Part shown: piece after piece, positions 13,964 through 33,917 of the stretch
Layout of the letters: each line of letters starts with the position of its first letter
Position numbering within the stretch: the first letter of the stretch is position 1
DNA from: Candidatus Edwardsbacteria bacterium
GTDB taxonomy: Bacteria > Edwardsbacteria > AC1 > EtOH8
Length of the DNA: 35,879 nt
Assembly: GCA_018821925.1 (NCBI GenBank)
Contig: JAHJLF010000047.1
Coordinates: 1 to 35,879, forward strand
Direction: 5' to 3'
Program-made: the position numbers and the translations under genes
Notes under the pieces: generated by a model
Seen by the model: the letters and a program-made list of their open reading frames with translations, nothing else
The model's database searches: none
What the model was told of the DNA's origin: nothing

Positions 13964-14058
13964 TGTCACCCTGGCCCGGCACCCTGTTTGACAAGCCGAA
14001 TGGGTGAATACTGCCCTCCTATAGCCCGTGTCTCCTCGAAGTTTACTCAGGATGACAG
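13964..14058. repeat. TGTCACCCTG...GGATGACAG repeat, copy A
   Basis: A 95-bp unit between dnaX and ybaB, closely matching copy B at 14081-14176. The unit begins TGTCACCCTG and ends with CTCAGGATGACA, the inverse of the start with one mismatch in copy B, so it looks like a small inverted-repeat-ended element. Confidence 0.75.
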
Positions 14059-14080
14059 CCCTTTTATTATTTAATTCGAT

Positions 14081-14176
14081 TGTCACCCTGAGCCCGGCAC
14101 CATGTCTGACAAGCCGAACGGGTGAATACTGCCCTCCTACAACCTGTGTCGCTTCGAAGTGTACTCAGGATGACAG
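14081..14176. repeat. TGTCACCCTGAG...CTCAGGATGACA repeat, copy B
   Basis: A 96-bp unit with 12-bp near-perfect terminal inverted repeats. It ends three bases before the dnaX stop codon. Copies A and B are in direct orientation, 22 bases apart. Confidence 0.8.
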
Positions 14177-16873: not shown

Positions 16874-17290
16874 TTAAAGAATAATTCTTTGAATGCCATT
16901 TTTTAATAGCTTGGTATTGAAATTAAATAACAATCCTAATCGTATTCCCGTTATTTTCAAATACGTTATAAGCTGAGCTTCGTGAATCGGCAATATTTTA
17001 TCAACCGCTTTCAATTCAATAATAATACAATTTTCTACGATCATATCTGCCCTGAAAGAACAATCGACCAATATTTCCTTATATTTCAGGGGGATTGGCT
17101 GTTCAAGTGTAAACTTGATATCGTTCTTATTCAATTCATAAGCTAAGCACTGCTTATATGCTGACTCCAGTAACCCAGGTCCGAGATTTTTATGAACCTC
17201 CAATGCCAGGCCAATAACCTTATTTGACAGCTTATTGATGGTTTCCATATCCATGTTTTCTTTGTGTCCTTTGAGGTCTTTGTGGTTCAT
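16874..17290 (-). CDS. GxxExxY protein
   Basis: A 138-residue protein with the family motif GLLESAY, followed by PIPLKYKEILVDCSFRADMI and IIIELKAVDKILPIHEAQL. The pattern D-x(n)-ELK resembles the core of PD-(D/E)XK nuclease folds, which has led to this family being placed in that superfamily; no activity is established. The first 12 residues (MNHKDLKGHKEN) are encoded by a CACAAAG repeat tract, so the ATG at 17254 (MDMETINKLSNKVI) may be the true start; neither has a clear ribosome binding site. Heptamer tracts lie on both sides. Confidence 0.8.
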   Translation of the reverse strand: MNHKDLKGHKENMDMETINKLSNKVIGLALEVHKNLGPGLLESAYKQCLAYELNKNDIKFTLEQPIPLKYKEILVDCSFRADMIVENCIIIELKAVDKILPIHEAQLITYLKITGIRLGLLFNFNTKLLKNGIQRIIL

Positions 17291-17479
17291 ATTTAATTCT
17301 ATATCTGTTTTTTAAACACAAAGAACGCTAAAATCACCCAGTAATGTCTTACTAATCCAACCGTCCCTTTGTGCCCTTTGTGCGCTTTGTGGTTCAAACC
17401 GTCTGTCCTTTAACACAAAGAACACCAAGCACACAAAGTTTTATTTAAATTTCTTGGCGCTCTTGGCGACTTGGCGGTT
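17257..17479. repeat. CTTTGTG/CACAAAG and CTTGGCG heptamer tracts
   Basis: Clusters at 17257-17290, 17316-17328, 17369-17397, 17411-17437 and 17447-17479, alternating in orientation. The last cluster changes the unit to CTTGGCG. The region between the GxxExxY gene and asd holds nothing else. Confidence 0.7.
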
Positions 17480-17488
17480 CAAAAAAAT

Positions 17489-18487
17489 CTATTTTAAAAG
17501 CAGTTCTGCGATCTGCACCGCATTGGTGGCCGCTCCTTTGCGCAGGTTATCGGCCACCACCCACATCACGAAGGCATTCTTTTTGACCGGATCCGGCCGC
17601 AGGCGGCTGACATACACCAGATCGGAACCTTTCAGCTCGGCCGGGGTGAAGAAATCTTTTTTGTCATACACAATGCCCGGAGCTTTGATCAGAAGCTTCT
17701 CGATATCCCTGACCGTGCAGTTTGACCCGGTCTCGAAATAGACCGACTCCGAATGCCCGGTCATCACCGGAACTCGCACCGTGGTGGCGTTGACCGCGAT
17801 CTTTTTGTCGTGCAGTATCTTTTGGGTCTCTTCGACCATCTTCCACTCCTCGCCGCTGTAACCCAGCTCAGAGATGTCGGATATCTGGGGAATGACATTC
17901 CCAGCTATTTGCCTAGAAAATGGCGAATTTTGAATTTTGAATTTTGAATTTTGAATTTGTTCTTCAAGAGCAATGATTCCCTGCCTTCCCGCTCCCGACA
18001 CCGCCTGGTAGGTGGACACCACTATCCGCTTGACCCGGTATTTTTTATGGATCGGCCCCAGGGCCGCCACCATCTGAATAGTGGAGCAGTTGGGGTTGGC
18101 TATCAAGCCCCGTTGCTTTTCGACATCCTCGGGGTTGACCTCGGGCACGATCAGCGGCACGCTGGGATGCATCCTGAAATCCGAACCGTTGTCTATCACC
18201 ACCGCCCCGGCCGCAATGGCCTTTTGAGCATATAGCCAGCTGGCGCCCTTCTCCCCCTCGGTGCCGGCGAAGAACACAATGCCGCAGCCGGAGAAGTCGG
18301 CCTGCTCGACCGATGCCACCGGATAAAATTTTCTTTTGAATTTGATCCGCCTACCGGCCGACCGGCTGGAGGCCCACAATTTAAGGCCGCTCAGGGGAAA
18401 TCTTCTTTCCTCCAGAACCTTGAGTATGGTCTGGCCCACCAAACCGGTGGCGCCCACCAGACCTACTATCATCGGTCCCTTGGTCAT
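17489..18487 (-). CDS. asd: Aspartate-semialdehyde dehydrogenase
   Basis: A 332-residue enzyme reducing aspartyl phosphate to aspartate semialdehyde with NADPH, the second step to lysine/DAP, threonine and methionine. It shows the nucleotide loop VGATGLVGQT (11-20), catalytic Cys134 in NPNCSTIQ, the substrate region VSGAGRQGI, and His245 in VMTGHSESV. A heptamer tract inserts QIQNSKFKIQNS at about residues 177-188, in a stretch that varies in length in the family, and the frame is kept. The ATG overlaps the stop of the small cysteine protein upstream; the ATG at codon 6 is an alternative. lysC is about 0.6 kb upstream. Confidence 0.94.
   Translation of the reverse strand: MTKGPMIVGLVGATGLVGQTILKVLEERRFPLSGLKLWASSRSAGRRIKFKRKFYPVASVEQADFSGCGIVFFAGTEGEKGASWLYAQKAIAAGAVVIDNGSDFRMHPSVPLIVPEVNPEDVEKQRGLIANPNCSTIQMVAALGPIHKKYRVKRIVVSTYQAVSGAGRQGIIALEEQIQNSKFKIQNSPFSRQIAGNVIPQISDISELGYSGEEWKMVEETQKILHDKKIAVNATTVRVPVMTGHSESVYFETGSNCTVRDIEKLLIKAPGIVYDKKDFFTPAELKGSDLVYVSRLRPDPVKKNAFVMWVVADNLRKGAATNAVQIAELLLK
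17925..17958 (-). repeat. In-gene heptamer tract (GAATTTT, about 4.9 copies)
   Basis: Nearly five tandem 7-bp units inside asd encoding QIQNSKFKIQN. The unit differs by one base from that of the GT9 tract at 10083-10113 (allowing for rotation). Confidence 0.88.
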
Positions 18488-18720
18488 TCCAGCGGTCTGG
18501 ATTTAAGGGCCACCTCGGCCATCACCAGGACGGAGCACTTGCCCATGACCTCCTCTTCGACCGGACCGTCATTCAACTTATTCACCCCCAGCAGTGCGGT
18601 AAATCTCTTGGGCTCCTGGCTGCTTTCCGGCAGAAGTGAGCCGTCCACCCAGAAACTGCATTTCTCCTTGATGCACTCCGACTCCTCCGGTTTCCTGATG
18701 AACCTGATGGGACAGATCAT
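18484..18720 (-). CDS. Small cysteine-containing protein coupled to asd
   Basis: The ATG at 18720 is chosen over 18768 because GGAGG lies five bases before it and the sequence MICPIRFIRKPEESECIKEKC then opens with its cysteine motif. The protein has 78 residues and four cysteines: MIC, ECIKEKC and GKC. These could bind a metal, but the pattern fits no family recognised here. It shares an ATGA overlap with asd, so translation is coupled. There is no signal peptide. Function unknown. Confidence 0.7.
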   Translation of the reverse strand: MICPIRFIRKPEESECIKEKCSFWVDGSLLPESSQEPKRFTALLGVNKLNDGPVEEEVMGKCSVLVMAEVALKSRPLE

Positions 18721-18908
18721 AGGGTCCTCCAATTTATTGGTTGGAAATGACTGAGTTACTTTTACCACCGAAACACGGAATTTATGAATGAACTGATATT
18801 AAGTTTTATCCGAAAGAAGGTCTGTAATATCTTTATAGTTACTTTCTGTACCGCCCGACCTCTCCACTTCGCAAGCATACAAGCTGGTCATGCTCAGTGC
18901 AGGCTCTA

Positions 18909-18945
18909 TTTCCCTCCCCTCGAGGGGAGGGAAGGGTGGGGTTTA
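18909..18945. repeat. GAGGGG palindrome
   Basis: Centred on CCCCTCGAGGGG, with CCCTCCC on one side and GGGAGGGAAGGGTGGGG on the other. It lies in the gene-free stretch 18721-19110 between the small cysteine gene and lysC. Confidence 0.75.
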
Positions 18946-18988
18946 TCCCCGGGTCGCATCAGCGCTGCTGTTTGGCAAAAGCTACCGT
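18946..18988. repeat. GGTCGCATCAGCGCTGCTG repeat, copy 1
   Basis: It is close to 28455-28497, differing at a few positions. Both copies stand next to GAGGGG palindromes, so the pieces travel together. Confidence 0.65.
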
Positions 18989-19004
18989 TAAAAATATCCC
19001 CTTG

Positions 19005-19088
19005 TGTCATTCCCGCCCCGCATCAAGTGCGGGATAAATTCCGACGGGAATCCACGAAAACCTGGATTCCTGCTTTCGCAGGAATGAC
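19005..19088. repeat. GTCATTCC...GGAATGAC element with an internal insertion
   Basis: It has the same ends as the unit at 15893-15955 but is longer, because its left arm carries an extra CATCAAGTGCGGGATAAATT-type stretch. It ends 22 bases before the lysC stop and may fold in the 3' end of that message. Confidence 0.75.
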
Positions 19089-19110
19089 GTGGTTAATTCC
19101 TCAAAGGGGG

Positions 19111-20316
19111 TTATCCTATGAAACTCTTGTGCAAAGCCAGAACCGCCTTTTCGATGTCCTTGCGCGACACGAAACAGGTGAGCTTGGTCTCGCTGGTGGT
19201 CATGCCCTCTATATGGATCTTGATCTTGCCCAGCTGGGCCAGCATTTTGGCCATGACGGCCGGCTCGCTGCCCACCCCGCTGCCGATCAGCGACACCGCG
19301 CCGATGTCCTGATTGACGTACAGCCTCGCCCCCTTCATCTTCTTCAGGTCCTTCTCCATGATCCCTTGGGCCGCCTTGAGGTCCGTCTGGTTGACGATGA
19401 AGTTGAGGTCGGTCCTGCCGTCGTCGCCCCCGCCGTGGAAATACGACCTGATGTATATCCCGGCCCCGGCCAGCTGGGTCACCACCTGGCTCAACAGGAC
19501 GCTCCTCCGAGGCACCGCCTTCATGGCCAGCATGGCCAGGAATTTATCGTGGGCAATGGTTTTGACGACCACCCTCTCCATCTTCGAACCTTTCCCTACT
19601 ATCGTTCCCGGTTTGTTGTCGAAACTGCTGCGGCAGGTCACCGGCATCCTGTACTTGGCGGCCAGCTCCACCGCCCTTAAATGCAGCACCTGAGCCCCGC
19701 AGCTGGACAGCTCCAGCATCTCGTCAAAGGAAATAGCCTTGATGGGCCGGGCGGTTTTGACCAGCCGGGGATCGGCACTGAAGATCCCCGAAAAATCGCT
19801 GTAGATCTCGCAGGCGTCGGCCTCCAGAGCCACCGCCAGGGCCACCGCGGTGGTGTCCGAGCCGCCCCGCCCCAACGTGGTGATCTCACGCGCCAGGCTG
19901 ACCCCCTGGAACCCGGCCACGATCACTATGCTATCATTTTTAAGGGAATCTTTCAAGCGTTCCGGTTTTATTTCCAGGATCTTGGCCCGGGTGTGGCTGG
20001 AATCGGTGATGATGCCCACCTGCGACCCGGTGAAGGACACCACCTTTTCGCCCAGGCCGTGGATGGCCATGGCTAAAAGGGCCATTGATATCCGCTCGCC
20101 GGTGGTCAGCAGCATGTCCATCTCGCGCCTGGGCGGATCAGATGATATCTGACGGGCCAGGGCGCTCAGGTCGTCGGTGGTGTCGGCCATGGCCGAGACG
20201 ACGACCACCACTTTGTTGCCCCGGCGCTTGGCCCGGACTATGCGGGCGGCCACCGCCTTGATGCGCTGGACGTTGGAGACCGAACTGCCTCCGTATTTTT
20301 GGACTATTATCGGCAT
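19111..20316 (-). CDS. lysC: Aspartate kinase
   Basis: A 401-residue monofunctional enzyme phosphorylating aspartate, the first step to lysine/DAP, threonine and methionine. It shows KYGGSSV (7-13), [31 protein letters not shown] and SADPRLV in the kinase domain. Two ACT regions follow (from about residue 265 and from about 345), which in the family bind lysine or threonine for feedback control. No Shine-Dalgarno sequence precedes the ATG; instead a nine-codon ORF overlaps the start. The leader and first codons recur three times upstream. With asd and dapL it builds the DAP route. Confidence 0.95.
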
Positions 20317-20336
20317 ATTTTTGACAGGTTTAACAT
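20307..20336 (-). other. Nine-codon upstream ORF overlapping the lysC start
   Basis: ATG at 20336 reads MLNLSKICR then TAA, ending inside the lysC start region (10-base overlap, different frame). The same frame without indels is present in all three upstream copies, with changes at a few codons. It has no clear ribosome binding site of its own. It may be an accident of the repeat or a coupling device. Confidence 0.4.
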
Positions 20337-20373
20337 GGTTTGTTTTATAATTTAAATATTATATCGTGTATAA

Positions 20374-21183
20374 TCAATTTTGTTTTATCATATCTGATAT
20401 CTTAACTTCCGGATGATGATATCTGCCAATGATCGTATCAAATCCGCTCAAACTAATTGCTTCTTCTGGGCACCAGTGCAGACAGGCAAAACAACCGGCA
20501 CAATGGTCTGACCACCGGGGTTTATTATCAACTATTTCAATGTTATCTACAGGGCAAATCTTTTTACATATTCCGCAACCATTACATTTCCCATTTGAAT
20601 TTAAAACCATGGATTCCCAGCCTTTGGTTATCACTTGCTTTAAAAATTTCAAGAGCGTGGGCAACATTTTGACAAATGATCCCGTGAGAATAAATCCACC
20701 AAATAAATTGCTTGTTTCCAATTTTCCCTTTTTTCTGGAAATAATATATTCACTGACCTCTTCTAATTTAACTTTCCAGTTTTTGAACATTCTTTCATGC
20801 TGGATTTGAGAAAACGAATTGGACCCGATGCCATTATGAGGCATGCCTACCGCAAATCCTGCAGCCAACTCTCCTCCGCAGGATTTTATCACCGTTTCAA
20901 AAATCTTCATAGACTTGGATGGCGTAATTCCATAGGTGCAGACAGCAAATATGTACTTGGAGTCGATATTTTTTATTTTCCCGACAAAATTTTCAACAAT
21001 CAAAGGCGGCTTGAAGTCATAAATTGGAAATACGAACCCTATAACCTCGGCTTGAGTATCAATGCTTTCTTTAACCAATACGGAAGTAATCGGCGTCAAT
21101 TTCCCATTGGTTTTTGCCGCAATATCCCTTGCAACAGCCAATGAATTCCCTGTTCCCGAAAAATAATATATTTCAGTGGTCAT
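20374..21183 (-). CDS. EFR1-family flavodoxin/ferredoxin protein
   Basis: A 269-residue soluble protein. The N-terminal flavodoxin-like domain has the FMN phosphate loop YYFSGTGNSLAVARDIA. The C-terminal domain carries two [4Fe-4S] clusters: CNGCGICKKICP and CAGCFACLHWCP. The architecture is that of EFR1 proteins, seen widely in anaerobes and archaea; the electron partners are unknown. It is AT-richer than lysC and the V-ATPase genes and forms part of the island. No Shine-Dalgarno is seen; the lysC-head copy ends 18 bases before its ATG, so translation may follow that small ORF. Confidence 0.88.
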   Translation of the reverse strand: MTTEIYYFSGTGNSLAVARDIAAKTNGKLTPITSVLVKESIDTQAEVIGFVFPIYDFKPPLIVENFVGKIKNIDSKYIFAVCTYGITPSKSMKIFETVIKSCGGELAAGFAVGMPHNGIGSNSFSQIQHERMFKNWKVKLEEVSEYIISRKKGKLETSNLFGGFILTGSFVKMLPTLLKFLKQVITKGWESMVLNSNGKCNGCGICKKICPVDNIEIVDNKPRWSDHCAGCFACLHWCPEEAISLSGFDTIIGRYHHPEVKISDMIKQN

Positions 21184-21201
21184 GTTTTTTGATTATTAAG
21201 A

Positions 21202-21291
21202 TTAGGTTCTGGTGTCCCGCTGGACGTTGGAGACCGAGCTGCCTCCGTATTTTGGGACTATTATCGGCATATTTTTGACAGGTTTAACATG
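21202..21291 (-). repeat. lysC leader and head, copy 1 (upstream of EFR1)
   Basis: Positions 21218-21291 match the lysC leader and first 18 codons (20263-20336) at all but two positions. The ATG at 21270 stays open for 22 codons: the 18 lysC-like ones (one change, Q6P) and then DTRT before TAA at 21202. The nine-codon upstream ORF is kept too. Past the leader ATG at 21291 the similarity ends. Confidence 0.93.
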
Positions 21292-21331
21292 ATTGATTGT
21301 ATCACAATTTCGGATCAGGTTGGCGGGCGTT

Positions 21332-22462
21332 TTAGTTACTGCCAATGATCAAGCTTTTTTCCGGTATTGTTTTATTATTTATTGGATAATCGAATACGAC
21401 CGCCCGGTTCTTTTCGGCAGCCGTCAGCAAGCGGGCGTCTTCAAAGTCAGCGCCGTTGGTGAACAACAGTTGCCCGGCAACGCTTATTATTAAATAATCT
21501 TCCCTGTTTTTTAACTCAACCTTCTCTGCACCGCCGTTCCAGTCCCGATAGTATTCCAAAGTTTCGTTCGGCGGCATTATCGTCAGGGAATTATCCTTAA
21601 ACTTTTTCAATAACTCGGCCTGGTTGATCATGGTGTCAGGGGCATAAGCCCTTTCATCAACAACCTCCCGATAAGGTTTGGTATAAATACCCCATTGATT
21701 CGGATATATCGTTTTCCGGAAGTCCGTGAGATCAACCCCGATCAGTTTGGCGCTTATATTCTTGATTAAAAACCTCATTAGAAAGTTATCGTTCGTCGGG
21801 GAATGATATATGGCTTTTTCAACAAATATCTCAACCAGGCGTCCCTGGTATATCAAATGCTCCGATGTTGTATCAATTTGCTCTTCAAAAAAGGCCTTCT
21901 CGGATCTGGTCAATTCCTTTTGCCATTTCTTGCTATTCAGCAAAGTATTTAAGGCCGGTTTTAATTCTTCGCTTTTTATTATGCGGTAATTATTATTTGT
22001 CCACTGGCCATTGGCAATACAATATTCCAAATATTTCAGAGAGGACTCGGCCTTTCCTCCCAGCGAATAGCCTCGGGTTATCAAGAACGGTATGCCGTTA
22101 CTGATTTCAATCGGTTCTGACGGCCAATCCTTATAGCCGGTGTTGCCAATAAAACCGGCGGCGCCGATGAGCGGCCTTCTTAAAACGGCGTTTTTCTTTC
22201 CCTGGAATAACAGTCTGGTTAAAATTATTATCTGGTCCTCATATTTATTGGTTCCGGCATATTCTTTGAGGATCTCTATCGCTTTGGTCCTGTCCAGAGA
22301 CTGAATATAGCCTGCCAGTAAAATGTACGGGCTGCATTTGTAATTTTCGGAATTAATGGAAGAACATTGTTCGATCAGGAATTGGAACCGATCGTTCTCC
22401 GTTTGCCCGAATGTTGTGCCGGTTAGGATTGTCGCAAATAATATCGTTAATAATTTTTTCAT
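21332..22462 (-). CDS. Secreted protein of unknown function (376 aa)
   Basis: No family is recognised. A signal peptide (MKKLLTILFATILTGTTFG) is followed by a mature protein that looks helical in the N-terminal half (short repeats resembling TPR or HEAT helices, for instance SLDRTKAIEILKEYAG and SSLKYLEYCIANGQW) and beta-rich in the C-terminal third (LTIMPPNETLEYYRDW, EDYLIISVAGQLLF). AAGGAGG lies before the ATG. The end of the lysC-head copy 2 is 28 bases upstream. Composition is AT-richer than lysC, as for its island neighbours. Confidence 0.7.
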   Translation of the reverse strand: MKKLLTILFATILTGTTFGQTENDRFQFLIEQCSSINSENYKCSPYILLAGYIQSLDRTKAIEILKEYAGTNKYEDQIIILTRLLFQGKKNAVLRRPLIGAAGFIGNTGYKDWPSEPIEISNGIPFLITRGYSLGGKAESSLKYLEYCIANGQWTNNNYRIIKSEELKPALNTLLNSKKWQKELTRSEKAFFEEQIDTTSEHLIYQGRLVEIFVEKAIYHSPTNDNFLMRFLIKNISAKLIGVDLTDFRKTIYPNQWGIYTKPYREVVDERAYAPDTMINQAELLKKFKDNSLTIMPPNETLEYYRDWNGGAEKVELKNREDYLIISVAGQLLFTNGADFEDARLLTAAEKNRAVVFDYPINNKTIPEKSLIIGSN

Positions 22463-22490
22463 GGTTGTTGCCTCCTTAAAATTGCTGGTA

Positions 22491-22549
22491 ACTGCCTCCG
22501 TATTTTAGACCATTATCGGCATGTCTTTGACAGGATTAACATGGTTTGA
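22491..22549 (-). repeat. lysC leader and head, copy 2 (upstream of the 376-aa gene)
   Basis: It matches the lysC leader and the first 11 codons with several changes. After ATG at 22522 the frame reads MPIMV and then a stop, so this copy is broken. The leader shares CAGGATTAACATG with copy 3. Confidence 0.88.
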
Positions 22550-22598
22550 CAATTTATTTTATCCCTACCGTTCCGGGTAAAGTATTTCTTTCCAGGCA

Positions 22599-23165
22599 TC
22601 AGATCGTGCTGAATTGAATTTGGGCCGTGGCCATTCTTGAATAAAAATCCAGCTCTTTCCTTCGTCTTCCCGAATAATCGATCAAACGATCAAGCCCCGT
22701 CCAAAGGCAGAACCATCCGCCGGGCTCAAATAACACCAGGAGCAGCTGAAGGTAGTATCTTTCCGAATTTAAAAATGTGATATAACTTGCAAAGATCATC
22801 AAGGCAATGCCCGATATGGTCAAAATGATGGCATTTCGAATACCATTTTGCTTTTCTTTTAAAAGCTGGCCGCGTTTTTCCGTGAAATACCGCTGCAGGC
22901 GGGTGGCGATTATATCTTCATCCTGTTTATTTCTTGTTTCCGCCGGCAACTGTAACCGCAGGATCATTTCTTTCCCTTGCTGGTCGGCAACCACTTTCCT
23001 GACCTGGGCAATGAAATCGTCCGATACGGTGCGTTTCAAATACGATCTTGGATCGAAATCAGAAAACAACTCTTCCAAAGAGTCCAGCCAAATGTTGACT
23101 ACGTCCCGTTTCAAGAAGGGTTTTTCCTGATCATTGTTTTCCGAGGATTTATTCAGCTGATCCAT
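22599..23165 (-). CDS. Uncharacterised 188-aa protein with two membrane segments
   Basis: The N-terminal half is hydrophilic and charged (KPFLKRDVVNIWLDSLEELF, then DFDPRSYLKRTVSDDFI). Residues about 109-130 and 137-160 form a helical hairpin in the membrane, joined by a short turn (NSERYY). The tail (SGRRRKELDFYSRM) is basic. The pattern looks like a conserved hypothetical family of bacteria and archaea, but no function is known. AAGG precedes the ATG. The chimeric lysC-head/ntpK-tail copy ends 57 bases upstream. Confidence 0.7.
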   Translation of the reverse strand: MDQLNKSSENNDQEKPFLKRDVVNIWLDSLEELFSDFDPRSYLKRTVSDDFIAQVRKVVADQQGKEMILRLQLPAETRNKQDEDIIATRLQRYFTEKRGQLLKEKQNGIRNAIILTISGIALMIFASYITFLNSERYYLQLLLVLFEPGGWFCLWTGLDRLIDYSGRRRKELDFYSRMATAQIQFSTI

Positions 23166-23222
23166 AGTATAAAAACCTTATGGGGAGTTAATGCTATTTA
23201 TTTTTTAGAAAACATGTCTTAT

Positions 23223-23342
23223 CTATTTCAAAATAAACATCATCACCAGAGCGGCCGCCGCCTTGATGCGCTGGACGTTGGAGACCGAACTGCCTCCGTA
23301 TTTTTGGACTATTATCGGCATATGTTTGACAGGATTAACATG
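23223..23342 (-). pseudogene. Chimeric lysC head / ntpK tail (copy 3)
   Basis: On the minus strand the leader and ATG (23321) are followed by about 21 codons identical to lysC, up to AAGGCGG. The frame then runs without a break into CTCTGGTGATGATG..., the last nine codons of ntpK (ALVMMFILK against ALVMTFILK), and stops at TAG (23223). The complete frame is 32 codons. The junction shares CGC in both parents. The small changes show that the ntpK part is decaying. Confidence 0.9.
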
Positions 23343-23460
23343 AATGATTTCCTTTGGATGAGATGTCAAAGGTTGCTATCCGTGATCGGGGGATATTTTG
23401 GTAACGGTATGGTATGTTCATCTTGGAATGCTTATCGGTATAAAATAAACAGAACATTAA

Positions 23461-23871
23461 CTAAGACTTTATATTTTTCAGTTTTTTTATCTTGCGTTTC
23501 AACACTGCCCCACCGCAAAGTTCATGCTCCCATATTCTAATCACTTTCCAACCTTTTACCCGTAGCACACGTCCAATATTAAGATCGCGCTGTATATTGC
23601 GCTGAATTTTATTGTTCCAGTATATGCGATTTGTTGCTGGCACACGGCAGTGTTTCGCACAACCGTGCCAAAAACAGCCATCAATAAAGACTGCAATTTT
23701 ATTTTTTGGGAATGTAAAATCCGGGTTACCAATTATTTTGTAACGCCTACGCCAACCGTGTATATGATTCTCGCGAAAAATTAATACTGTTTTTAATTCT
23801 GTTGATATATTTCCACTAGACTTGACATTCGCCATGATTTGGGAACGTCTATTAATTGAAACATTATCCAT
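23461..23871 (-). CDS. vsr: Very short patch repair endonuclease (Vsr)
   Basis: A 136-residue DNA mismatch endonuclease. It has E25, D51 in GNPDFTFP, FIDGCFWHGC with H69, H74 and the RIWEHEL end. These match the metal and catalytic positions of the family. Vsr nicks 5' to a T:G mismatch produced by deamination of 5-methylcytosine, guarding against the mutations its partner C5-methyltransferase provokes. It lies six bases after the 245-aa nuclease gene and ends the cassette. The AT-rich bases mark it as acquired. Confidence 0.94.
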   Translation of the reverse strand: MDNVSINRRSQIMANVKSSGNISTELKTVLIFRENHIHGWRRRYKIIGNPDFTFPKNKIAVFIDGCFWHGCAKHCRVPATNRIYWNNKIQRNIQRDLNIGRVLRVKGWKVIRIWEHELCGGAVLKRKIKKLKNIKS

Positions 23872-23877
23872 TTAGAA

Positions 23878-24615
23878 TCAAGAAATTATTTCAACCCATG
23901 TTTCGTCAAATTTTAGGGCATCTAATACTTCACCTTGGTTTAGGCGAGGTGGTTTTTTTATGCGAATAGCCAAGCGATGGGCAGGCACATTTTCAATAAT
24001 TGTGAATTGCGAACCATGTGGTTGCCATGTAAAGATGTGTGCATCACCATCTTTAGTATAGCCTTCTAAATTATCATTATCATTCCATTGCCACCAATAT
24101 CGCTTTGCATCGTACATAATAGTATCAAGTTCAAAAGCAGCTAATTCAAGAAGATCATCAGACTTAACCAATACAACTGTACGTAGATGTTGGAACTTTT
24201 TACGGACACCTGCAACGCGCTCATTGTATATAGACAGGACTTTATCGCCCATATCATTTGGATCTACATTCTTGACTTTGTCTTGACCAAAAGAAAAAGC
24301 AACTGAATTGCGACCAGATATTAAACGCACCTTAGCCACAGTGGATGGTCGTTTGTTTTTAACAGTTTTTGCACCCCAAGCTGTTTGTTGAAGCACGATG
24401 TCGTCAAGCCCGACATTAGATGGCTGCCACTTCGCACCAACTAATCTTGCAAATATTTCTTCCCAATCTGTTCCCTCAAGGCGTGGTGTTCCTCTTGTTG
24501 CCAAATGATAGATAATTTCCTTTCCTAAGTTTAAAGCAAACCCTTTGGGAAACTTGTTAATTGGATAAGGTGGTTTATATTTTTCGACTGTTCTTAGCCT
24601 TGGTCTTTTTACCAT
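23878..24615 (-). CDS. Probable type II restriction endonuclease of an unrecognised family
   Basis: A 245-residue soluble protein whose family is not recognised. Its position between a C5-methyltransferase and vsr, with a 41-base overlap with the methyltransferase, points to the restriction partner. A candidate PD-(D/E)XK-like site is E52/E53, then D71-D72 in NVGLDDIVLQQ, with K83/K86 in WGAKTVK; this is an inference from spacing. The recognition site cannot be told. The middle has VLVKSDDLLELAAFELDTI; no transmembrane or signal segment is seen. Confidence 0.7.
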   Translation of the reverse strand: MVKRPRLRTVEKYKPPYPINKFPKGFALNLGKEIIYHLATRGTPRLEGTDWEEIFARLVGAKWQPSNVGLDDIVLQQTAWGAKTVKNKRPSTVAKVRLISGRNSVAFSFGQDKVKNVDPNDMGDKVLSIYNERVAGVRKKFQHLRTVVLVKSDDLLELAAFELDTIMYDAKRYWWQWNDNDNLEGYTKDGDAHIFTWQPHGSQFTIIENVPAHRLAIRIKKPPRLNQGEVLDALKFDETWVEIIS

Positions 24616-25633
24616 AGCGTTTTCCTTTCTCTTTCAACAGCAGTTGTTTATCAAATGATTGTTTCCTTGAATACACAAAATCCGGTTTGCTATTTTTCAT
24701 CCAACCACATGATTTAAATACGTTTAACAAAACAGCTTCGGCAACAGGAATAGGCAAACTATTGCCAGCTTGTTTGCGAGTTTGACTGTAATTACATATA
24801 ATTTTAAACGAATCAGGGAATCCTTGAAGTCGTAACATCTCGCGTGCAGTAAGCCGCCTTTCGCCATTGACTAATAAATAATTATATGAGGCCCCAGCTC
24901 TAAGTGCGCATGAATATGGATATACGCTTATGTGCCCGGCCTTATTCTCATGCCATATTGTAGGTTCCTTTGTTGGAGAATGCGTGGCAAAGCGTTTTGT
25001 TTTAATGTAGTCAGACGCATAATATTCCTTTGGCACACTTTTTTCCAATAACAGCCCAAGTGGTTTCATTGTTTTCCCGCCCTTCGGCCATTCAAAATCG
25101 CATGGTTTTTTGAAGCCTATTATAAATATACGCTCTCGTTTTTGTGGTAGTCCAAAATCCAATGCATTAAATATTTTTTTATCAACACTATATTCAAGTC
25201 CACGCAACACTTCCAAAATTCTAGAAAGTGTTTTCCCACCATTATGCCCAGCTAATAGTTTAACGTTTTCTAAAACGAAAGCCTGCGGTCTCTTCGCTTG
25301 AATTATTCTAGCTATTTCAAAAAAAAGTGTGCCTCTAGCATCTTCAAATCCTTTACGTTGTCCAATGATGCTGAATGGCTGACATGGGAAGCCAGCAAGC
25401 AAGATATCGTGTTCCGGAATAGTGCTAACATCAATAGCGTGTATATCACCTTTAGGAATTTCATTAAAATTAGCTTCGTAAGCTTTTTGGCATTCTATAT
25501 CAATATCGCTGGATAAAACACACTCTGATTTAATGCCCATTTTTTTCGCAACATCTTCAATAGCATAGCGAAAGCCACCTATTCCACAGAATAGATCTAT
25601 GAATCGTATAGTCGTTTCCAAATTGTGCCTCAT
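24575..25633 (-). CDS. DNA (cytosine-5-)-methyltransferase
   Basis: A 352-residue C5-methyltransferase. Motif I is FIDLFCGIGG (11-20), motif IV GFPCQPFS with catalytic Cys84, motif VI ENV (122-124), motif VIII QKRERIF (164-170), motif IX RRLTAREMLRLQGFP (259-273) and motif X QAGNSLPIPVAEAV. The target recognition region between motifs VIII and IX is about 85 residues, so one site is likely read. A basic tail overlaps the nuclease gene by 41 bases in another frame. It begins 21 bases past the ntpK stop, with AAGGG as ribosome binding site. AT-rich. Confidence 0.95.
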   Translation of the reverse strand: MRHNLETTIRFIDLFCGIGGFRYAIEDVAKKMGIKSECVLSSDIDIECQKAYEANFNEIPKGDIHAIDVSTIPEHDILLAGFPCQPFSIIGQRKGFEDARGTLFFEIARIIQAKRPQAFVLENVKLLAGHNGGKTLSRILEVLRGLEYSVDKKIFNALDFGLPQKRERIFIIGFKKPCDFEWPKGGKTMKPLGLLLEKSVPKEYYASDYIKTKRFATHSPTKEPTIWHENKAGHISVYPYSCALRAGASYNYLLVNGERRLTAREMLRLQGFPDSFKIICNYSQTRKQAGNSLPIPVAEAVLLNVFKSCGWMKNSKPDFVYSRKQSFDKQLLLKEKGKRYGKKTKAKNSRKI

Positions 25634-25654
25634 AATTCAACCCTTACCATATCG

Positions 25655-26158
25655 TTACTTCAAAATAAACGTCATCACCAGAGCGAACACCGCATATGTC
25701 TCCGGCATGGCCCCGGCCACCAGCGCATTTCCCAGGGTATTCTTCCCCTCCTGTATGCTCTTTATCCCCGCGGCGCAGACGATCCCCTGGTACCAGGCGC
25801 TGACCATCAATATCACGCTGGCGATGGCGGCCTTGCCGGCCACGGTGTAGGGATCGGTGGCGAAGCCGTTAAGATTGGTGAAGAATATCACCATCCCGTA
25901 GATCCCCTGGGTGGAGGGCATCAGGGCCACCGCGATGTTCTTGTAAAAATTCTCCTCGCCCCCGGCCAGCAGGGCCTGGAAAGCTATCACCAGTCCGATG
26001 GCCGAGCCGCTTAATCCCAGCGACAGGCTGAGGCCCAGGGCGATTTTGGCCACCAAGACCGGCCAGTCGTTTGCCGCCGGGGCGCTCTGGCACCAGGCCG
26101 GTGCGGCGGCGATCAGCGACAGCAGGAAAATTGCCGGGATGGTAAATCTCTTTTTCAT
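25655..26158 (-). CDS. ntpK: V-type ATP synthase/ATPase subunit K (proteolipid)
   Basis: A 167-residue rotor-ring protein: a signal-like N-terminus (1-24, unusual against the roughly 156-residue Enterococcus NtpK) and then two helical hairpins. The ion site is recognisable: M80-P-S-T83-Q84, Q124 in AWYQG, and the key Glu153 in MPETYAV. These line up with T64, Q65, Q110 and E139 of the sodium-translocating Enterococcus hirae NtpK. It lies two bases after subunit I and ends the operon. Its final codons recur at 23223-23252 fused to lysC. Confidence 0.93.
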   Translation of the reverse strand: MKKRFTIPAIFLLSLIAAAPAWCQSAPAANDWPVLVAKIALGLSLSLGLSGSAIGLVIAFQALLAGGEENFYKNIAVALMPSTQGIYGMVIFFTNLNGFATDPYTVAGKAAIASVILMVSAWYQGIVCAAGIKSIQEGKNTLGNALVAGAMPETYAVFALVMTFILK

Positions 26159-26160
26159 GT

Positions 26161-27960
26161 CTATCCTCTTTCGGTTTTGAAGGGTTTGTATTCTATGCCC
26201 CCGCCCTGGAAGAAATTCTTAAAGGCCTCCACGAAATGGAGCCGGGCGGAATGGACCGTGCTTCCCAGTATGGACAGCGCCAGGTTGAAGGTGTGGCCGG
26301 CGATCAGTATCAGCACCGCCAGTGGGATCCCCAAAACCGGCCCGGCCGAGCCGTAGACCATCCCGGCCAGCTGGTTCATCACCGAGGCGATGGCCGAGGT
26401 GGCGATGCCCAGCCCGAACAGCCGGGCGTACGACAGCAGATCGCCGATCAGCCCGGTCAGCCCGTAGATGCTCCACAGTCCCAGCCCGATGCGGGCCAGC
26501 CAGTTCTTATGGTCGGAGGAAAATATCAATGTCAGCAACAGGCCCAGTACGATCAGCCCCGAACCGGCGTAATAGAGCATTTGGCTGTATGAGGCATCGG
26601 CGAACCAGATGTTGCGGCTGACCAATGTCACCCCGCCCCACAGGACCAGCAGAGTGGCCAGCTTTTGAAGAACGCCCTGAAAGTTGTTGGCCTGGAGCAT
26701 CCCCAGCAGATACGAGAAGGAAAGATGCAATACCCCCATGCCCAGGGCCAGGTAGAAGAACAGCATGGGGTCTCCGGCACCGACAGAGACGTCTAAAAGA
26801 ATCCACTGGCGGCTGGCGAACTCGTAGCCGAACACCGATCCGGTGATCAAGCCCACCACGATGGTGGAGACGGCGAAGGCTTTGCACAACTTCAGCGGCA
26901 GGATCAACGCGGGATTCTTGGGCCCCAGCTTCTTTTCCATAATATGGGCGGCCAGCAGAAAGACCAGCCCGTAGCCGGCGTCGCTCAAACAGATGCCGAA
27001 GAACAGTATCATGAACGGCGCGAAGAAATACGAGGGATCCAGGTCCCGGTACTTGGGCAGGCCGTAGAGTTTGAGCAGCGGCTCGATCCGCCTGATGAAC
27101 CAGTTGTTCTTCAACAGCAAGGGCGGCTGTTCGTCGGGCGCCGGTTTCCGCATCTCCAGCTTTAATGGGATGCCGGAACCCTCGACGGCCTCACGAAGCA
27201 ACGATTCATTCTCGGCCGGCAGCCAGCCCTCCAGCCCGAAAAGATATTCCTGCTGGTAGAGCGCCGCGATGCTGTGATCCAGAGTCTCCCGGTTCAGGGT
27301 TTCCAGGTATATTTTTTGCACCGCCTCTTTTTTCAGGGCCAGCCCGGCCAGGGACCTTTTGATCTCTTCCTGCTGCTGCGATAATTTTTGATGCTCCCGG
27401 CGGGCCTGCTCCAGGCCCATCTCGGGCCAACCCAGCAAAGTAGCGTGAAATACTTCCAGATTGAGGCGGTGGGAAATGACGAAGAACAGCGGATATCTTT
27501 TCTGCGACACCACCTGGAGATAAGCGTCATCGGGAATCTTTATTGCCTTCGGGTCCTTCTGGGCCGCCCGGTAGCGGTTGACATACAGATTGTGTTTGCG
27601 GAGTTCTTCGGCATGGGCCGGGTTGAAGTCGCCCCAGGGCTCCAGGTCGGCGATCAGATTCTCCAGATGGGCCAGCCGGGCAGTGGTCTCGCCTAGCCGG
27701 TGCAGCAGGGACTCAATATGGGGGACAAGCTGGTCGTCGCTGATATCGCCGGCCGGGCGGTTTTCGGCGTTGACATATTTGTCCAGCGCTTTCAGGACCG
27801 CATCGATCCTCTTTAGCTCCGGCAGATCGGCGATCTTGGAAATTTTTTCTTTTGGCAGGTCGATATGCACCACCCCGGCCCCCTGCAATAGGGCCATGGC
27901 CCTCTCCTTAGTCTGGGAAGGGCCCACCATGTAGATCCGTGTCATGGGGGCTATTGACAA
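26161..27960 (-). CDS. ntpI: V-type ATP synthase subunit I (stator a-subunit homologue)
   Basis: A 599-residue protein whose N-terminal half is a cytoplasmic arm with coiled-coil stretches (residues 1-310: IAPMTRIYMVGPSQTKERA, later LSQQQEEIKRSLAGL). The C-terminal half has about seven membrane helices, with IMLFFGICLSDAGYGLVFL and IGDLLSYARLFGLGIATSAI being the conserved parts. The latter contains the arginine that faces the rotor carboxylate. The TTG start is chosen because MSIAPMTRI fits the family beginning and GGAG lies eight bases before it. An 833-bp repeat-filled gap precedes it. Confidence 0.93.
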   Translation of the reverse strand: MSIAPMTRIYMVGPSQTKERAMALLQGAGVVHIDLPKEKISKIADLPELKRIDAVLKALDKYVNAENRPAGDISDDQLVPHIESLLHRLGETTARLAHLENLIADLEPWGDFNPAHAEELRKHNLYVNRYRAAQKDPKAIKIPDDAYLQVVSQKRYPLFFVISHRLNLEVFHATLLGWPEMGLEQARREHQKLSQQQEEIKRSLAGLALKKEAVQKIYLETLNRETLDHSIAALYQQEYLFGLEGWLPAENESLLREAVEGSGIPLKLEMRKPAPDEQPPLLLKNNWFIRRIEPLLKLYGLPKYRDLDPSYFFAPFMILFFGICLSDAGYGLVFLLAAHIMEKKLGPKNPALILPLKLCKAFAVSTIVVGLITGSVFGYEFASRQWILLDVSVGAGDPMLFFYLALGMGVLHLSFSYLLGMLQANNFQGVLQKLATLLVLWGGVTLVSRNIWFADASYSQMLYYAGSGLIVLGLLLTLIFSSDHKNWLARIGLGLWSIYGLTGLIGDLLSYARLFGLGIATSAIASVMNQLAGMVYGSAGPVLGIPLAVLILIAGHTFNLALSILGSTVHSARLHFVEAFKNFFQGGGIEYKPFKTERG

Positions 27961-28001
27961 TTGAGGTGCTCCAACTAAATTTGTTTCCCAAATTCTGACC
28001 T

Positions 28002-28129
28002 AACCCCTGCCCCTTCCCCGCAGGGGAAGGGATTCTTACTTCCCCCTCCTCACGGGAGGGGGACCGAGGGGGCGGTCGTTACTTTCCGGGGTCCCAACCC
28101 CACCCTTTCCCTCCCCTCGAGGGGAGGGC
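28002..28129. repeat. Three adjacent C/G-rich palindromes in the ntpD-ntpI gap
   Basis: Units at 28002-28033 (CCTTCCCCGCAGGGGAAGG core), 28040-28073 (CCCCCTCCTCACGGGAGGGGG core) and 28091-28129 (CCCTCCCCTCGAGGGGAGGG core). The 27961-28793 gap has no gene. Confidence 0.78.
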
Positions 28130-28191
28130 CTGCACTGAGGATGGCAGTTATTGTTGCCAACTGAAGTGGAAGCCGTCAGGCAGGGAGAGGT

Positions 28192-28288
28192 CAAAGAGAA
28201 AGCGGAGAAAACAATTCAATACTTTGGTGAATATTTAGATTAATATGTCATGTCCGTGGAAACGGGAATCCAGGCCGGCCTACCGTTG
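28192..28288. repeat. Direct repeat of about 97 bp, copy 1
   Basis: It begins AAAGAGAAAGCGGAGAAAAC and ends GGCCGGCCTACCGTTG. It is highly similar to copy 2 at 28566-28663. A GTCATTCC-type unit is degraded inside copy 1 and clearer in copy 2. Confidence 0.82.
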
Positions 28289-28454
28289 TTACTTTCTTAT
28301 GACTAAGAAAGTAACCAAAGAAGTCCTTGCCGCCCAGCTCCGCGGTTTGTAAGGCCTGCGCCCCGGCATTCATTGAACCAGAACAAGCATGATGTACATA
28401 ACACAATGACTGCTTTATCGGGGTTGAAGTTTATCCGCTCCACTTAAAGGCGGG

Positions 28455-28545
28455 GTCCCGGGTCGCATCAGCGCTGCTGCCTGGCAGAAGCTGCCGTGAA
28501 CCACCCCCGTCCCCTCCTTAATCAAGGAGGGGATAAAGGGGTGGT
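28455..28545. repeat. GGTCGCATCAGCGCTGCTG copy 2 plus GAGGGG palindrome
   Basis: Positions 28455-28497 repeat 18946-18988. Positions 28501-28545 form a palindrome with core CCCCTCCTTAATCAAGGAGG. Confidence 0.7.
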
Positions 28546-28565
28546 AATATTTTGGAGCTTTCTCT

Positions 28566-28663
28566 TCAAAGAGAAAGCGGAGAAAACAATTCAATACATT
28601 GGTGAACATTTAGCGTAATACGTCATTCCCGCTAAGGCGGGAATCCAGGCCTGCCTACCGTTG
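28566..28663. repeat. Direct repeat of about 97 bp, copy 2
   Basis: Second copy of 28192-28288, with a readable GTCATTCCCGC...GCGGGAATCC hairpin (28622-28645) inside. Confidence 0.82.
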
Positions 28664-28672
28664 GCAGAGTAA

Positions 28673-28785
28673 GCGGTGGTTTCGATACGCCCCGCCGTTT
28701 ACCGAGTGGCTGTTAAGTTTGATTTGGTTTTCCCACTTGCTTGATTAACAGATGTATCGAGGTAGGCGGGGCACTCAACCACCGG
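28673..28785. repeat. Imperfect inverted repeat just past ntpD
   Basis: The arms GGTGGTTTCGATACGCCCCGCC and GTATCGAGGTAGGCGGGGC...CAACCACC are roughly inverse, about 50 bases apart. It lies 8 bases beyond the ntpD stop and could end or attenuate the message before ntpI. Confidence 0.55.
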
Positions 28786-28793
28786 CATACAAA

Positions 28794-29396
28794 TCAAAAC
28801 GACACGGCGCTGAGCCGCTTGGCCGCCTTGGCCACCCCCACCGCCACCGCCCGCTGATCCTGCAGATAGACGTTGATATGCCTGATGGCATCCCGGCAGT
28901 CCGGCATCAGCCGCTGTTCATAGAGGTTTATCCGCTGGCTGGTCTTGCGCAGCCCCTCGGTCAGCAGGAGATCCTGGTCCTGCAGGAATTTTAATTCGGT
29001 CTTTAAGTAGATTATATTCCGGGCCGTGTCCCGGACGGCCTCGAAGGAATAGGGCGTATCAAAGAATCCGTAGGCCGGCTGGTGGAAGACAATGCCGTCC
29101 AGCTGCGGCACCCTGAGACCGGCGAAATTTTTCACCGAGCTTTTCAGTTGTTCGATCTCCAGGAATGGGCGGAGGATGCCCTCCATCTCCCGGAACAGCG
29201 GCGAGAAGGTTTCGGCCGCTTTCAGCGAAGCCTCCAGCTGAAGAAACTTCTCCTGGATGGCCTTGCGGACCTGGGATTGCTGCAGCAGGAAAAGCTGCTT
29301 CCGGGCCTCCAGGGCCGGCAGGAACCGCTGGTACATGCCCAGCTTCTGCTTCTGCTCCCTTAAGGAAACTTTATTTAGCTTGATGTTCTCGGGCAT
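28794..29396 (-). CDS. ntpD: V-type ATP synthase subunit D (central rotor shaft)
   Basis: A 200-residue helical protein. The N-terminal helix (LNKVSLREQKQKLGMYQRFL) and the C-terminal helix (LRKTSQRINLYEQRLMPD, then IRHINVYLQDQ) form the antiparallel coiled coil that turns inside the A3B3 head. Length and pattern fit the family. It starts three bases after subunit B, so the two are coupled. Confidence 0.93.
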   Translation of the reverse strand: MPENIKLNKVSLREQKQKLGMYQRFLPALEARKQLFLLQQSQVRKAIQEKFLQLEASLKAAETFSPLFREMEGILRPFLEIEQLKSSVKNFAGLRVPQLDGIVFHQPAYGFFDTPYSFEAVRDTARNIIYLKTELKFLQDQDLLLTEGLRKTSQRINLYEQRLMPDCRDAIRHINVYLQDQRAVAVGVAKAAKRLSAVSF

Positions 29397-29399
29397 GGC

Positions 29400-30704
29400 T
29401 CACTTTTTTTTGGGCCAGTATTTATCTATCATCTCCTGCTTGATCCCCACCTCGTCCGGGGTGAAGCATTCGGCCAGGGTCTGCCAGCCCAGGTCCAGGG
29501 CCTGCTCCAGAGCGATATCCACCCTCAGGTCCAGGAAACGCTTATAGAATTTTTGGGAGTAATCCAGGTAGCGTTCGTCCTCCGGGGTCTTGTCGAAGCC
29601 CATGGCCAGCTTCTGCTCCACCTCCCGGCTCTTGGCGTACAGCCGGATCATGCTGTTCATGATATGGCCGTGGTCCTCCCGAGTCACCTTTCCGATCACC
29701 AGCTGTTTCAAGCGGGACAGCGAGCCGAACGGTTCCACCACGCCCTTGCGCAGATAGAATTGCCCCTCGGTAATATAGCCGGTATTGTCCGGCACCGGAT
29801 GGGTGACATCGTCGCCCGGCATGGTGGTCACCGCCAGAATGGTGATGGACCCGGCCCCCTCGAAATCCACCGCCTTCTCGTAGCGGGCCGCCAGATCGCT
29901 GTACAGCGAGCCGGGATATCCCAGGTTGGACGGCACCTGGTCCATGGAGATGGCGATCTCCTTGAGGGCGTCGGCGAAGGCGGTCATATCGCTCAGCAGC
30001 ACCAGCACCCGCTTGCCCTGGACCCCGAACTGCTCGGCCGCGGCCAGGGCCAGGTCCGGCACCAGCAGCCGCTCCACCACCGGGTCGGAGGCGGTATGGA
30101 TGAACATGATGGTCCGGGACAGCACCCCGGCCTGTTCGAAGGAATTTTTAAATTTAAGATACTCGTCGTATTTCAGGCCGATGCCGCCCAGGATCACCAC
30201 ATCGGCGTTGGCCCGCATCCCTATCCGGGCCAGCAGTTCGTTGTAGGGCTCGCCGGCCGCGGCGAAGATGGGCAGTTTCTGGCTCTCCACCAGGGGATTG
30301 AATACGTCCACCATCGGCACCCTAGTCTCGATGAACCCCCGGGGGATGACCCGCCTGATGGGATTGACCGACGGCCCGCCGATCTCTATCCGGGGAAGCG
30401 ATTTCAATTCCGGCCCGCCGTCTATCGGCTGGCCCGATCCGTTGAAGATCCTTCCCAGCAGGGCCTCCCCGAAAGCCACCTGCATGGGGTGCTTCAGGAA
30501 CCGCACCTGGTCGCCGGTGGAGATGCCCCGGGTCCCGGCGAACACCTGCAGAAAGACCTGGTCGCCCTGCAGGCGGATCACCTGGGCCAGCGAGGAACGG
30601 CCCTGTCCTTTGACCGTGGCCAGTTCGCCGTTGCGGATGCCTGGGGCATGGACGGTGATGATGTCCCCCTGGATCCGGGAGATCAGATTGTATTCCTTGA
30701 TCAT
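29400..30704 (-). CDS. ntpB: V-type ATP synthase subunit B
   Basis: A 434-residue regulatory/non-catalytic head subunit. It begins [20 protein letters not shown] and has RLVPD-like and [14 protein letters not shown] segments, then [12 protein letters not shown]. No Walker A lysine is seen, as expected for B. The ATG at 30704 is chosen over the frame from 30953: GGAGGAGG lies before it, it overlaps the A stop by four bases (ATGA), and the first 83 residues of the longer frame are only a shadow of subunit A. Confidence 0.95.
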
Positions 30705-32470
30705 CTTGCCTCCTCCTTGCCCAGCATGGCGCCTATCTCCCGACGGTATTCCAGATATTTTTCGCCCTGATAGGGGCTGTACTTCATCTGGAAGAAAAGA
30801 TTCTGCAGGTGGGTCATTCGGGCTTTGGCCAGCTCCTTGTTTTCGAAATCGAACTGGTGGCGGACCATCTCCGTCAACAAAAGAAAATCCTCTATCTGCC
30901 GCTGGCGCGAGGTGGCCCTGTCCACCGGATCGAAGGAATCCTGCTGCAGGCAAGTAGCGTCCACGATCTCCGATTTCTGGTAGCTTACCAGGTCGGGCAG
31001 GGAGATGCCCTCCTCCCCCACCACCAGCATCATCTGCCGGACGGCACTGCCGTCGGCCATCAGCTTATGGGTCTCCCTCACCATCTCCACCCATTCCGGA
31101 TGGCGCCGGTTCAAAAAATCCTCCATCTGTTTGAGGTACAGGCTCCAGGAGATCAGCGGATCGATGGCCGGGTATCTCCGCTGATCGGAACGGCTGCGCG
31201 ACAGCCCGTGGAAAGCTCCCACCACCTTGAGGGTGTTCTGGGTCACCGGCTCCTCGAAGTTGCCCCCGGCCGGGGAGACGCTGCCGATCATGGTCAGCGA
31301 GCCGGTGCTTTCATTATGCAGTTTGACCACTCCGGCCCGCTCATAGACCGCGGCGATCCGGCTCTCCAGGTAGGCCGGAAAGGCCTCCTCGCCGGGGATC
31401 TCCTCCAGGCGGGCCGAGGACTCCCTCAGGGCCTGGGCCCAGCGCGAAGTGCTGTCGGCCAGCAGCAAAACTTTAAGTCCCAGCTGTCGGTAATACTCGC
31501 CCAGGGTAAGCCCGGTGTAGATGGATGCCTCCCTGGCCGCCACCGGCATGGAGGATGTATTGCAGATGATCACCGTCCGGTCCATCAGTGACCGCCCGGT
31601 CTTGGGATCCTCCAGTTGGGGGAACTCCCGGATGGTCTCCACCACCTCGCCGGCCCTCTCCCCGCAGGCCACGATGATGACGATGTCGGCCTCGGCGTAG
31701 CGGGAGATGATCTGCTGCAGCACGGTCTTGCCGGCCCCGAACGGTCCGGGGATGCAGGCGGTGCCGCCCTCGGCCAGGGGGAAGAAGATGTCTATCAGCC
31801 GGCACTGGGTCAGCAGCTGTTTGTCCGGCAGCAGCCGCTCGCGGTAGGCCCGCATCGGCTGTTTCACCGGCCACTCCTGTTTCATAGTGGCCGCGACCAC
31901 CCGGCCGTCCTGGTTTTTTATTTTGGCGATGGAGTGAGATATCTTATATTTGCCGGGCGGGGATATTTCGGTGATCTCCCAATTGCCGGAGAGCGCCAAA
32001 GGGACCATGATGGGATGGCCGAACAGCCCCTCGGTGACCTCACCCAGGTATTCCCCGGGCTTGACCCGGTCCCCCTTTTTGGCCAGGGGCACGAAGTCCC
32101 ACAGCTTCTCCTCATCCAAGGGCGGAAGGTACTGTCCCCGCTTCAGGAAGAAGCCCTGGTTGTTCTCCAGCAGGGCCAGAGGGTTCTGCAGACCGTCGTA
32201 GATGTTGCCCAGCATGCCGGGTCCCAGGATGGCCGACAGCACCTGCCCGGAGAAATCAACCTGGTCGCCGATCATCAGCCCGGCGGTGCTCTCGAAGACC
32301 TGCATATCCACCTGACGGCCCCGGATCCGGATGACCTCCGATTTCAGAGCCTGCCCCTGGCAATGGACGTAGGCCACCTCGTTCTGCACCACATCCTGGC
32401 CCGGGTCGATCTCGGCCACTACCAGCGGCCCGTTCACCGATACCACTCTTCCTATGGTCTTATCCGTCAC
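30701..32470 (-). CDS. ntpA: V-type ATP synthase subunit A (catalytic)
   Basis: A 589-residue ATPase with Walker A GPFGAGKT (242-249), the non-homologous insertion between the N-terminal barrel and the P-loop (residues about 115-200), GERAGEVVE, and [15 protein letters not shown] with the catalytic-site region. It hydrolyses ATP to drive cation export, or makes ATP from an inward flow. It starts within the DUF2764 stop (ATGA) and ends within the B start. Confidence 0.96.
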
Positions 32471-33195: not shown

Positions 33196-33200
33196 GGGAT

Positions 33201-33821: not shown

Positions 33822-33917
33822 TATATCTCCTTCGCGTAAAATCATGTTCAAAAAGGAAGCTTTGATATCCGTTCGTTGAAAATCTTTTGTCTCTCTCTGC
33901 CCTTTCTGTCCGGTCAG

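Follow-up and report, generated by a model that had tools for sequence, protein, structure and literature searches.

Integron cassette arrays are the familiar case of foreign genes stacked in one orientation at a single site, the modules being set apart by a repeated element. Another route is insertion with long target duplication (Nobusato, Uchiyama, Ohashi, Kobayashi 2000, Gene 259:99), in which, as citing papers describe it, RM and other genes enter a genome with a long, variable target repeat (PMC3031569, PMC1643837). Homology-facilitated illegitimate recombination likewise builds gene arrays, for example the T6SS immunity arrays of Vibrio cholerae (PMC5361080), and transformation drives merodiploidy in Streptococcus pneumoniae by unequal chromatid crossing-over via partly repeated donor DNA (PMC3784515).

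The locus set beside these systems here is the interval between ntpK and lysC in a window of 35,879 nt, contig C47 of the 2.44-Mb draft genome G000 of Candidatus Edwardsbacteria, whose LysC is 95% identical to that of its closest named relative, another Candidatus Edwardsbacteria assembly. As in integron arrays, the modules of this island are codirectional, stacked and repeat-separated; unlike them, the island has no integrase, and its repeat is a truncated host gene of variable length. A preliminary description had singled out positions 23223-23342, where the head of lysC is fused in frame to the tail of ntpK. There is good, if incomplete, reason to regard this chimera as a junction scar without function, left in a hotspot where foreign genes are added one after another between ntpK and lysC. 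Each insertion came with target duplication, probably through homology-facilitated illegitimate recombination in which two alleles of the locus took part. On the minus strand the V-ATPase operon (with ntpI, and ntpK last) is followed by a C5 methyltransferase gene, a 245-aa ORF, a Vsr gene and the chimeric scar, and then by p188, a lysC-head copy, p376, a second lysC-head copy, an EFR1 ferredoxin gene and intact lysC; the GC content of the island is 38-44% against 54-60% in its surroundings. The features, in order of position, are as follows.

19111-20316, minus strand: lysC, aspartate kinase, intact (Pfam AA_kinase, ACT)
20317-20337, minus strand: native lysC leader; copies diverge abruptly upstream of CATGTTAA
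20374-21183, minus strand: EFR1 family ferredoxin gene, cargo (NF038196)
21218-21291, minus strand: truncated lysC copy c2, between p376 and the EFR1 ferredoxin gene; 74 nt, 97% to native
21332-22462, minus strand: p376; residues 1-199 90% identical to p371 of G002, then divergent
22490-22543, minus strand: truncated lysC copy c4, between p188 and p376; frame broken by a one-base deletion
22599-23165, minus strand: p188, the oldest island gene, in G000, G001 and G002
23166-23222, minus strand: old ntpK 3' flank leading to p188, common to the second ntpK tail of G002 (17/20 just after the stop)
23223-23253, minus strand: ntpK tail portion (ALVMMFILK, TAG), overlapping the lysC part at CGC; 27 nt, 96% to the ntpK end
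23223-23321, minus strand: chimeric 32-codon ORF, lysC codons 1-21 plus in-frame ntpK tail, TAG stop (from translation and copy matches)
23251-23342, minus strand: truncated lysC copy c3, 21-nt leader plus 71-nt head; 92 nt, 97% to native
23347-23421, minus strand: acyltransferase-start remnant, 25 codons, 84% over residues 1-25; gene whole in G001 and G003
23422-23461, minus strand: lysC copy a', decayed leader and head, fused to the acyltransferase remnant as in G001 and G003 (from alignment)
23461-23871, minus strand: Vsr mismatch endonuclease gene, cargo (PF03852, TIGR00632)
23878-24615, minus strand: 245-aa ORF between the methyltransferase and Vsr genes
24575-25633, minus strand: C5-cytosine DNA methyltransferase gene, cargo (PF00145, TIGR00675, PADLOC MTase_II)
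25655-26158, minus strand: ntpK, V-type ATPase subunit K, intact (Pfam ATP-synt_C; NCBIfam subunit K models)
20320-20337, 21274-21291, 22526-22543 and 23325-23342: copies of the CATGTTAATCCTGTCAAA motif

The 245-aa ORF, which had no Pfam, NCBIfam, PADLOC or convincing PDB sequence match, is likely the cognate restriction enzyme, to judge from its position. Besides intact lysC, G000 carries four truncated lysC heads, one of them decayed, and the "copy 3" of the preliminary description is one of these four. The decayed copy a', together with the acyltransferase remnant, aligns with scores of 112 and 146 against a shuffle maximum of 40, its lysC-like part being weaker by itself than the alignment that includes the remnant. 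p376 and p371 of G002 (L120) have unrelated C-terminal halves after residue 199, a divergence that would represent another illegitimate join or a tail swap inside the island. No Rfam match that might indicate an RNA leader or riboswitch before lysC was found over 17000-28500. Elsewhere in the window are two 85-nt direct repeats (89%) lying 118 nt apart beside a dnaX-like ORF, so recognised by eye (13974-14176), two 98-nt direct repeats (87%) lying 375 nt apart between ntpI and ntpD (28191-28663), and, at the contig edge, a partial ORF that by eye is IS1595-type transposase-like (39-440).

The anatomy of the chimera is as first reported. Translation from 23321 to 23223 on the minus strand gives 32 residues, lysC codons 1-21 pass in frame into the ntpK tail, and the bases CGC belong to both sides of the junction; the range 23223-23342 comprises this ORF and its 21-nt leader. 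From the ATG to the junction the lysC part (71 nt) is identical to the native lysC head at 70 positions, and the ntpK part matches with an E value of about 1e-8 within the island; given these match lengths, identities and E value, neither part is a product of chance. By our own arithmetic a junction overlap of at least three bases is expected in about 5% of random joins, and the three-base CGC overlap is a weak indication of microhomology.

Foreign genes occupy the interval between ntpK and lysC in all four available genomes of the genus, with different cargo in each and every cargo gene codirectional with ntpK and lysC. In G000, G001 and G002 the two genes share a strand and are separated by 5.3-5.7 kb; in G003 the interval is split over two contigs whose ends carry matching parts. 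The G001 island consists, after ntpK, of an HNH nuclease gene, a small ORF, a 206-aa ORF (GIY-YIG-like by eye, without a Pfam match), lysC head a and the acyltransferase gene, and then of a 116-aa ORF, lysC head b, a 170-aa ORF, p188, lysC head c, a NUDIX gene and lysC. In G002 ntpK is followed by a 263-aa ORF, a 504-aa deaminase/ATPase-like ORF, an ntpK tail of 67 nt, p188, a lysC head, a phosphoesterase gene, p371 and lysC. The 504-aa ORF (L120:8565-10079) joins a cytidine-deaminase-like domain to a RecG-C-terminal-like ATPase domain (HATPase_c_4) and is a possible defence gene. The first G003 contig carries ntpK, a 294-aa ORF with a DNA methylase gene, an ntpK tail of 66 nt and a TPR protein gene before the contig break; the second carries a lysC head, the acyltransferase gene, pyrF and lysC. 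Here the methylase and the 294-aa candidate restriction gene stand right after ntpK and immediately before the 66-nt ntpK-end repeat (G003:C30 1075-3600, L165), which on sequence grounds reads as a clear case of insertion with target duplication. RM genes are thus part of the cargo in G000 (methyltransferase and Vsr) and G003 (methylase and candidate restriction gene), and some inserts are non-RM. In a family-wide search the pyrF and EFR1 cargo had no close relative elsewhere in the family, and the acyltransferase was confined to the present locus in G001 and G003, plus the remnant in G000.

Truncated lysC heads lie upstream of lysC in all four members of the genus, differing in length and neighbours and stopping at many points, 17 to 108 nt into the gene; the ntpK-tail copies measure about 27 to 67 nt. 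Since the cargo differs and partial lysC heads and ntpK tails stand at the junctions, the additions spared ntpK and lysC themselves and left truncated copies of their ends. In an 800-kb sample of G002, taken for the base rate of gene-end repeats, just 12 pairs of direct repeats are in contact with a gene end, and several of these belong to a single dispersed-repeat cluster, as against 4 pairs by the same criteria in the 5.3-kb island of G000; such scars are therefore concentrated at the ntpK-lysC locus. Sequence identity does not distinguish duplication in situ from allele exchange: among the native heads, c3 most resembles that of its own genome, but copy b of G001 that of G002. Copy b was considered as proof of allele import and rejected, its higher identity to G002 lysC being explicable by common ancestry.

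How old the parts of the chimera are may be read from what lies beyond its stop codon. There the 3' flank of its ntpK tail shares 17/20 bases with the flank of the second ntpK tail of G002, all other pairs of ntpK 3' flanks share at most 9/20, and both matching flanks lead to p188. Given this match and the presence of p188 beyond it in both genomes, the arrangement of ntpK tail and p188 existed before the chimera, and what arrived anew was consequently the RM genes with the lysC head behind them; the ntpK tail of the chimera is thus a pre-existing one and not a fresh copy. The preliminary description held that ntpK and lysC were probably neighbours before the island grew. That the same interval is bounded by the two genes across the genus agrees with this, but they are directly adjacent nowhere among the relatives: p188 lies between them in all three complete intervals, and an empty site, with ntpK adjoining lysC without cargo, was found in none of the four members of the genus, all of which carry the island. 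Genomes of sister genera have the gene order tpr-aminotransferase-lysC-asd in 6/6 cases and lack the V-ATPase operon there, and the related V-ATPase operon of G004 is on a contig other than that of lysC, so that the ntpK-lysC interval is a novelty at the level of the genus. The V-ATPase operon (25655-33851) lies between the aminotransferase gene and lysC only in the genus of G000; in sister genera the aminotransferase gene and lysC follow one another directly.

The sequence of events that would account for the chimera most simply begins with incoming DNA that is another allele of the same locus, of the form ntpK-RM genes-...-lysC. This allele would recombine homologously with the resident one in ntpK (the anchor could lie in ntpK or in lysC), and an illegitimate join at CGC would connect the incoming lysC head to the resident ntpK tail beside p188. 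Such a single event, likely homology-facilitated illegitimate recombination or a template switch, would give ntpK-RM-lysC head/ntpK tail-p188-...-lysC, with the reading frame left open by chance. The decayed lysC head and 25 acyltransferase codons just upstream of the chimera suggest that the segment came from an allele of the same locus. A ComEC family protein is encoded in 4/4 genomes of the genus and Ku in none of the four, a combination that favours putative DNA uptake with homologous or illegitimate joining over Ku-dependent end joining; the latter was ruled out for a genus without Ku.

Compared through the papers that cite it, insertion with long target duplication yields a pattern that the ntpK-lysC product appears to match. 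In both, as far as those papers describe the class, repeats flank the inserts (ntpK tails in G002 and G003, lysC heads in all four genomes), their length varies (17-108 nt for lysC, about 27-67 nt for ntpK), and RM genes can be the cargo, as with the G003 methylase and candidate restriction gene followed by the 66-nt repeat. By the same accounts the ntpK-lysC island differs in that its inserts are serial at one locus, with gene ends duplicated on both sides of the island, and in that it has many non-RM genes and a recurrent right boundary. The Vibrio arrays share stepwise acquisition of cargo, remnants of displaced genes and the combination of a homologous anchor with an illegitimate join, although in the present case the anchor is inferred; their remnants are orphan immunity genes and effector 3' ends, whereas those at the ntpK-lysC locus are lysC 5' heads and ntpK 3' tails, and lysC and ntpK themselves remain intact (PMC5361080). 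Pneumococcal merodiploidy likewise yields duplications from unequal crossing-over, but these span 100-900 kb between long repeats, unlike the short gene-end scars of the island (PMC3784515).

Among the alternatives, plain tandem duplication from the ntpK tail to the lysC head through CGC, with the cargo of the first unit later replaced by RM genes, fares best and is nonetheless unlikely. The preliminary description had proposed a duplication of this interval, and lysC head followed by ntpK tail is exactly the junction order that duplication or unequal crossover would leave. The intervening DNA (p188 and flanks), however, has no second copy in the first unit: no second p188 flank was found in G000, and p188 is single-copy in each genome that has it. 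A later exchange of p188 for the RM genes and the acyltransferase remnant would also be required, the other lysC heads would be left unexplained, and the flank orthologous to the G002 tail implies that a lysC head with its upstream cargo joined an existing ntpK-tail/p188 locus. Joining of alleles needs one step where tandem duplication needs extra replacement steps.

Joining of alleles at random illegitimate sites does not predict the recurring right boundary of the inserts. Inserts that are unrelated to each other repeatedly share one end base, which lies 21 nt ahead of lysC and borders a dispersed 18-nt motif. Downstream of CATGTTAA, 31-37/38 bases are identical among c3, c4, c2 and the native gene of G000, copy a of G001, copy a and the native gene of G003 and the native gene of G008, which belongs to another genus yet shares this sequence; upstream of CATGTTAA the lysC copies agree in only 5-15/30 bases. 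There are exceptions: the leader is wholly or partly missing from copy b and the native gene in G001 and from the native gene in G002. With up to 2 mismatches allowed, CATGTTAATCCTGTCAAA matches 12 times in G000 and 31 times each in G003 and G006, against 0-1 matches for the reversed motif used as control; its copies are often paired in opposed orientation at a distance of 70-90 nt, and some stand directly in front of a start codon. None was found in viral contigs, and nothing related to the motif appeared among the literature matches listed. A 138-aa ORF at 16874-17290 resembles, by eye, GxxExxY proteins, and motif copies in G002 and G003 (L128, L146) seem to have a similar gene in front of them. 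In four cases the stop codon of a cargo gene is no more than 10 nt from a lysC leader or start, and the boundaries could be set by selection for compact, codirectional insertion into the operon. A somewhat less probable account than tandem duplication is integrase-free accretion at a specific boundary, in which the space open to inserts runs from the ntpK stop to the 5' edge of the dispersed AATCATGTTAATCCTGTCAAA motif in front of lysC, one cut being fixed at the motif and the other falling at variable points inside lysC; if true, the AATCATGTTAATCCTGTCAAA motif would be a hotspot signal or nick site for the capture of foreign operons. IS200/605-type transposition at the motif was considered and rejected, with only two Y1 transposase matches in the whole genome and zero in the island.

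Islands in tRNA genes restore the gene and displace its old end. Site-specific integration of this kind, with the ntpK 3' end or lysC 5' end as att core, would fit the abrupt divergence of the intact ntpK genes of all four genomes from one another directly after the stop codon, the start points of the ntpK-tail duplicates downstream of intact ntpK in G002 and G003 (about 3 nt apart or less), and the one common end base of inserts before lysC. We nevertheless hold it doubtful, a shade more so than boundary-specific accretion, as the scanned island proteins gave no match to an integrase or transposase family and no core is fixed, the lysC copies ending 17 to 108 nt into the gene even though their upstream boundary is constant. 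Far less probable is an assembly artefact: the lysC heads are near-identical repeats and G000 is a draft assembly of 95 contigs, but the repeats are shorter than 100 nt and diverged, similar scars occur in independent assemblies of three relatives, and the ntpK-tail/p188 joint is common to G000 and G002. As to the preserved frame, which the preliminary description pointed out, it stays open through to the ntpK stop in 33% of 12,190 simulated lysC-head/ntpK-tail joins, and only one of the genomes has the chimera. The open frame is an accident to be expected one time in three, and nothing points to selection. That the chimera is a mini-gene, translated and selected as a short membrane-like peptide, is scarcely credible, for despite the retained lysC leader and start codon and the open frame, such retention is expected at that rate, the chimera is confined to a single genome, two of its few changes replace an amino acid (V to A, T to M), and no Shine-Dalgarno-like sequence was found upstream.

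If the chimera is, as we favour, a scar of serial insertion, then short in-frame fusions of this type should not be called genes in annotation, and the chimeric ORF is of interest mainly as part of a readable accretion hotspot. Because the insertions are marked by truncated ends of housekeeping genes, the order of events can be read and can be tested in more genomes. The locus thus shows with unusual clarity how bacteria come to collect foreign genes, including genes for defence, without a visible integrase or transposon.
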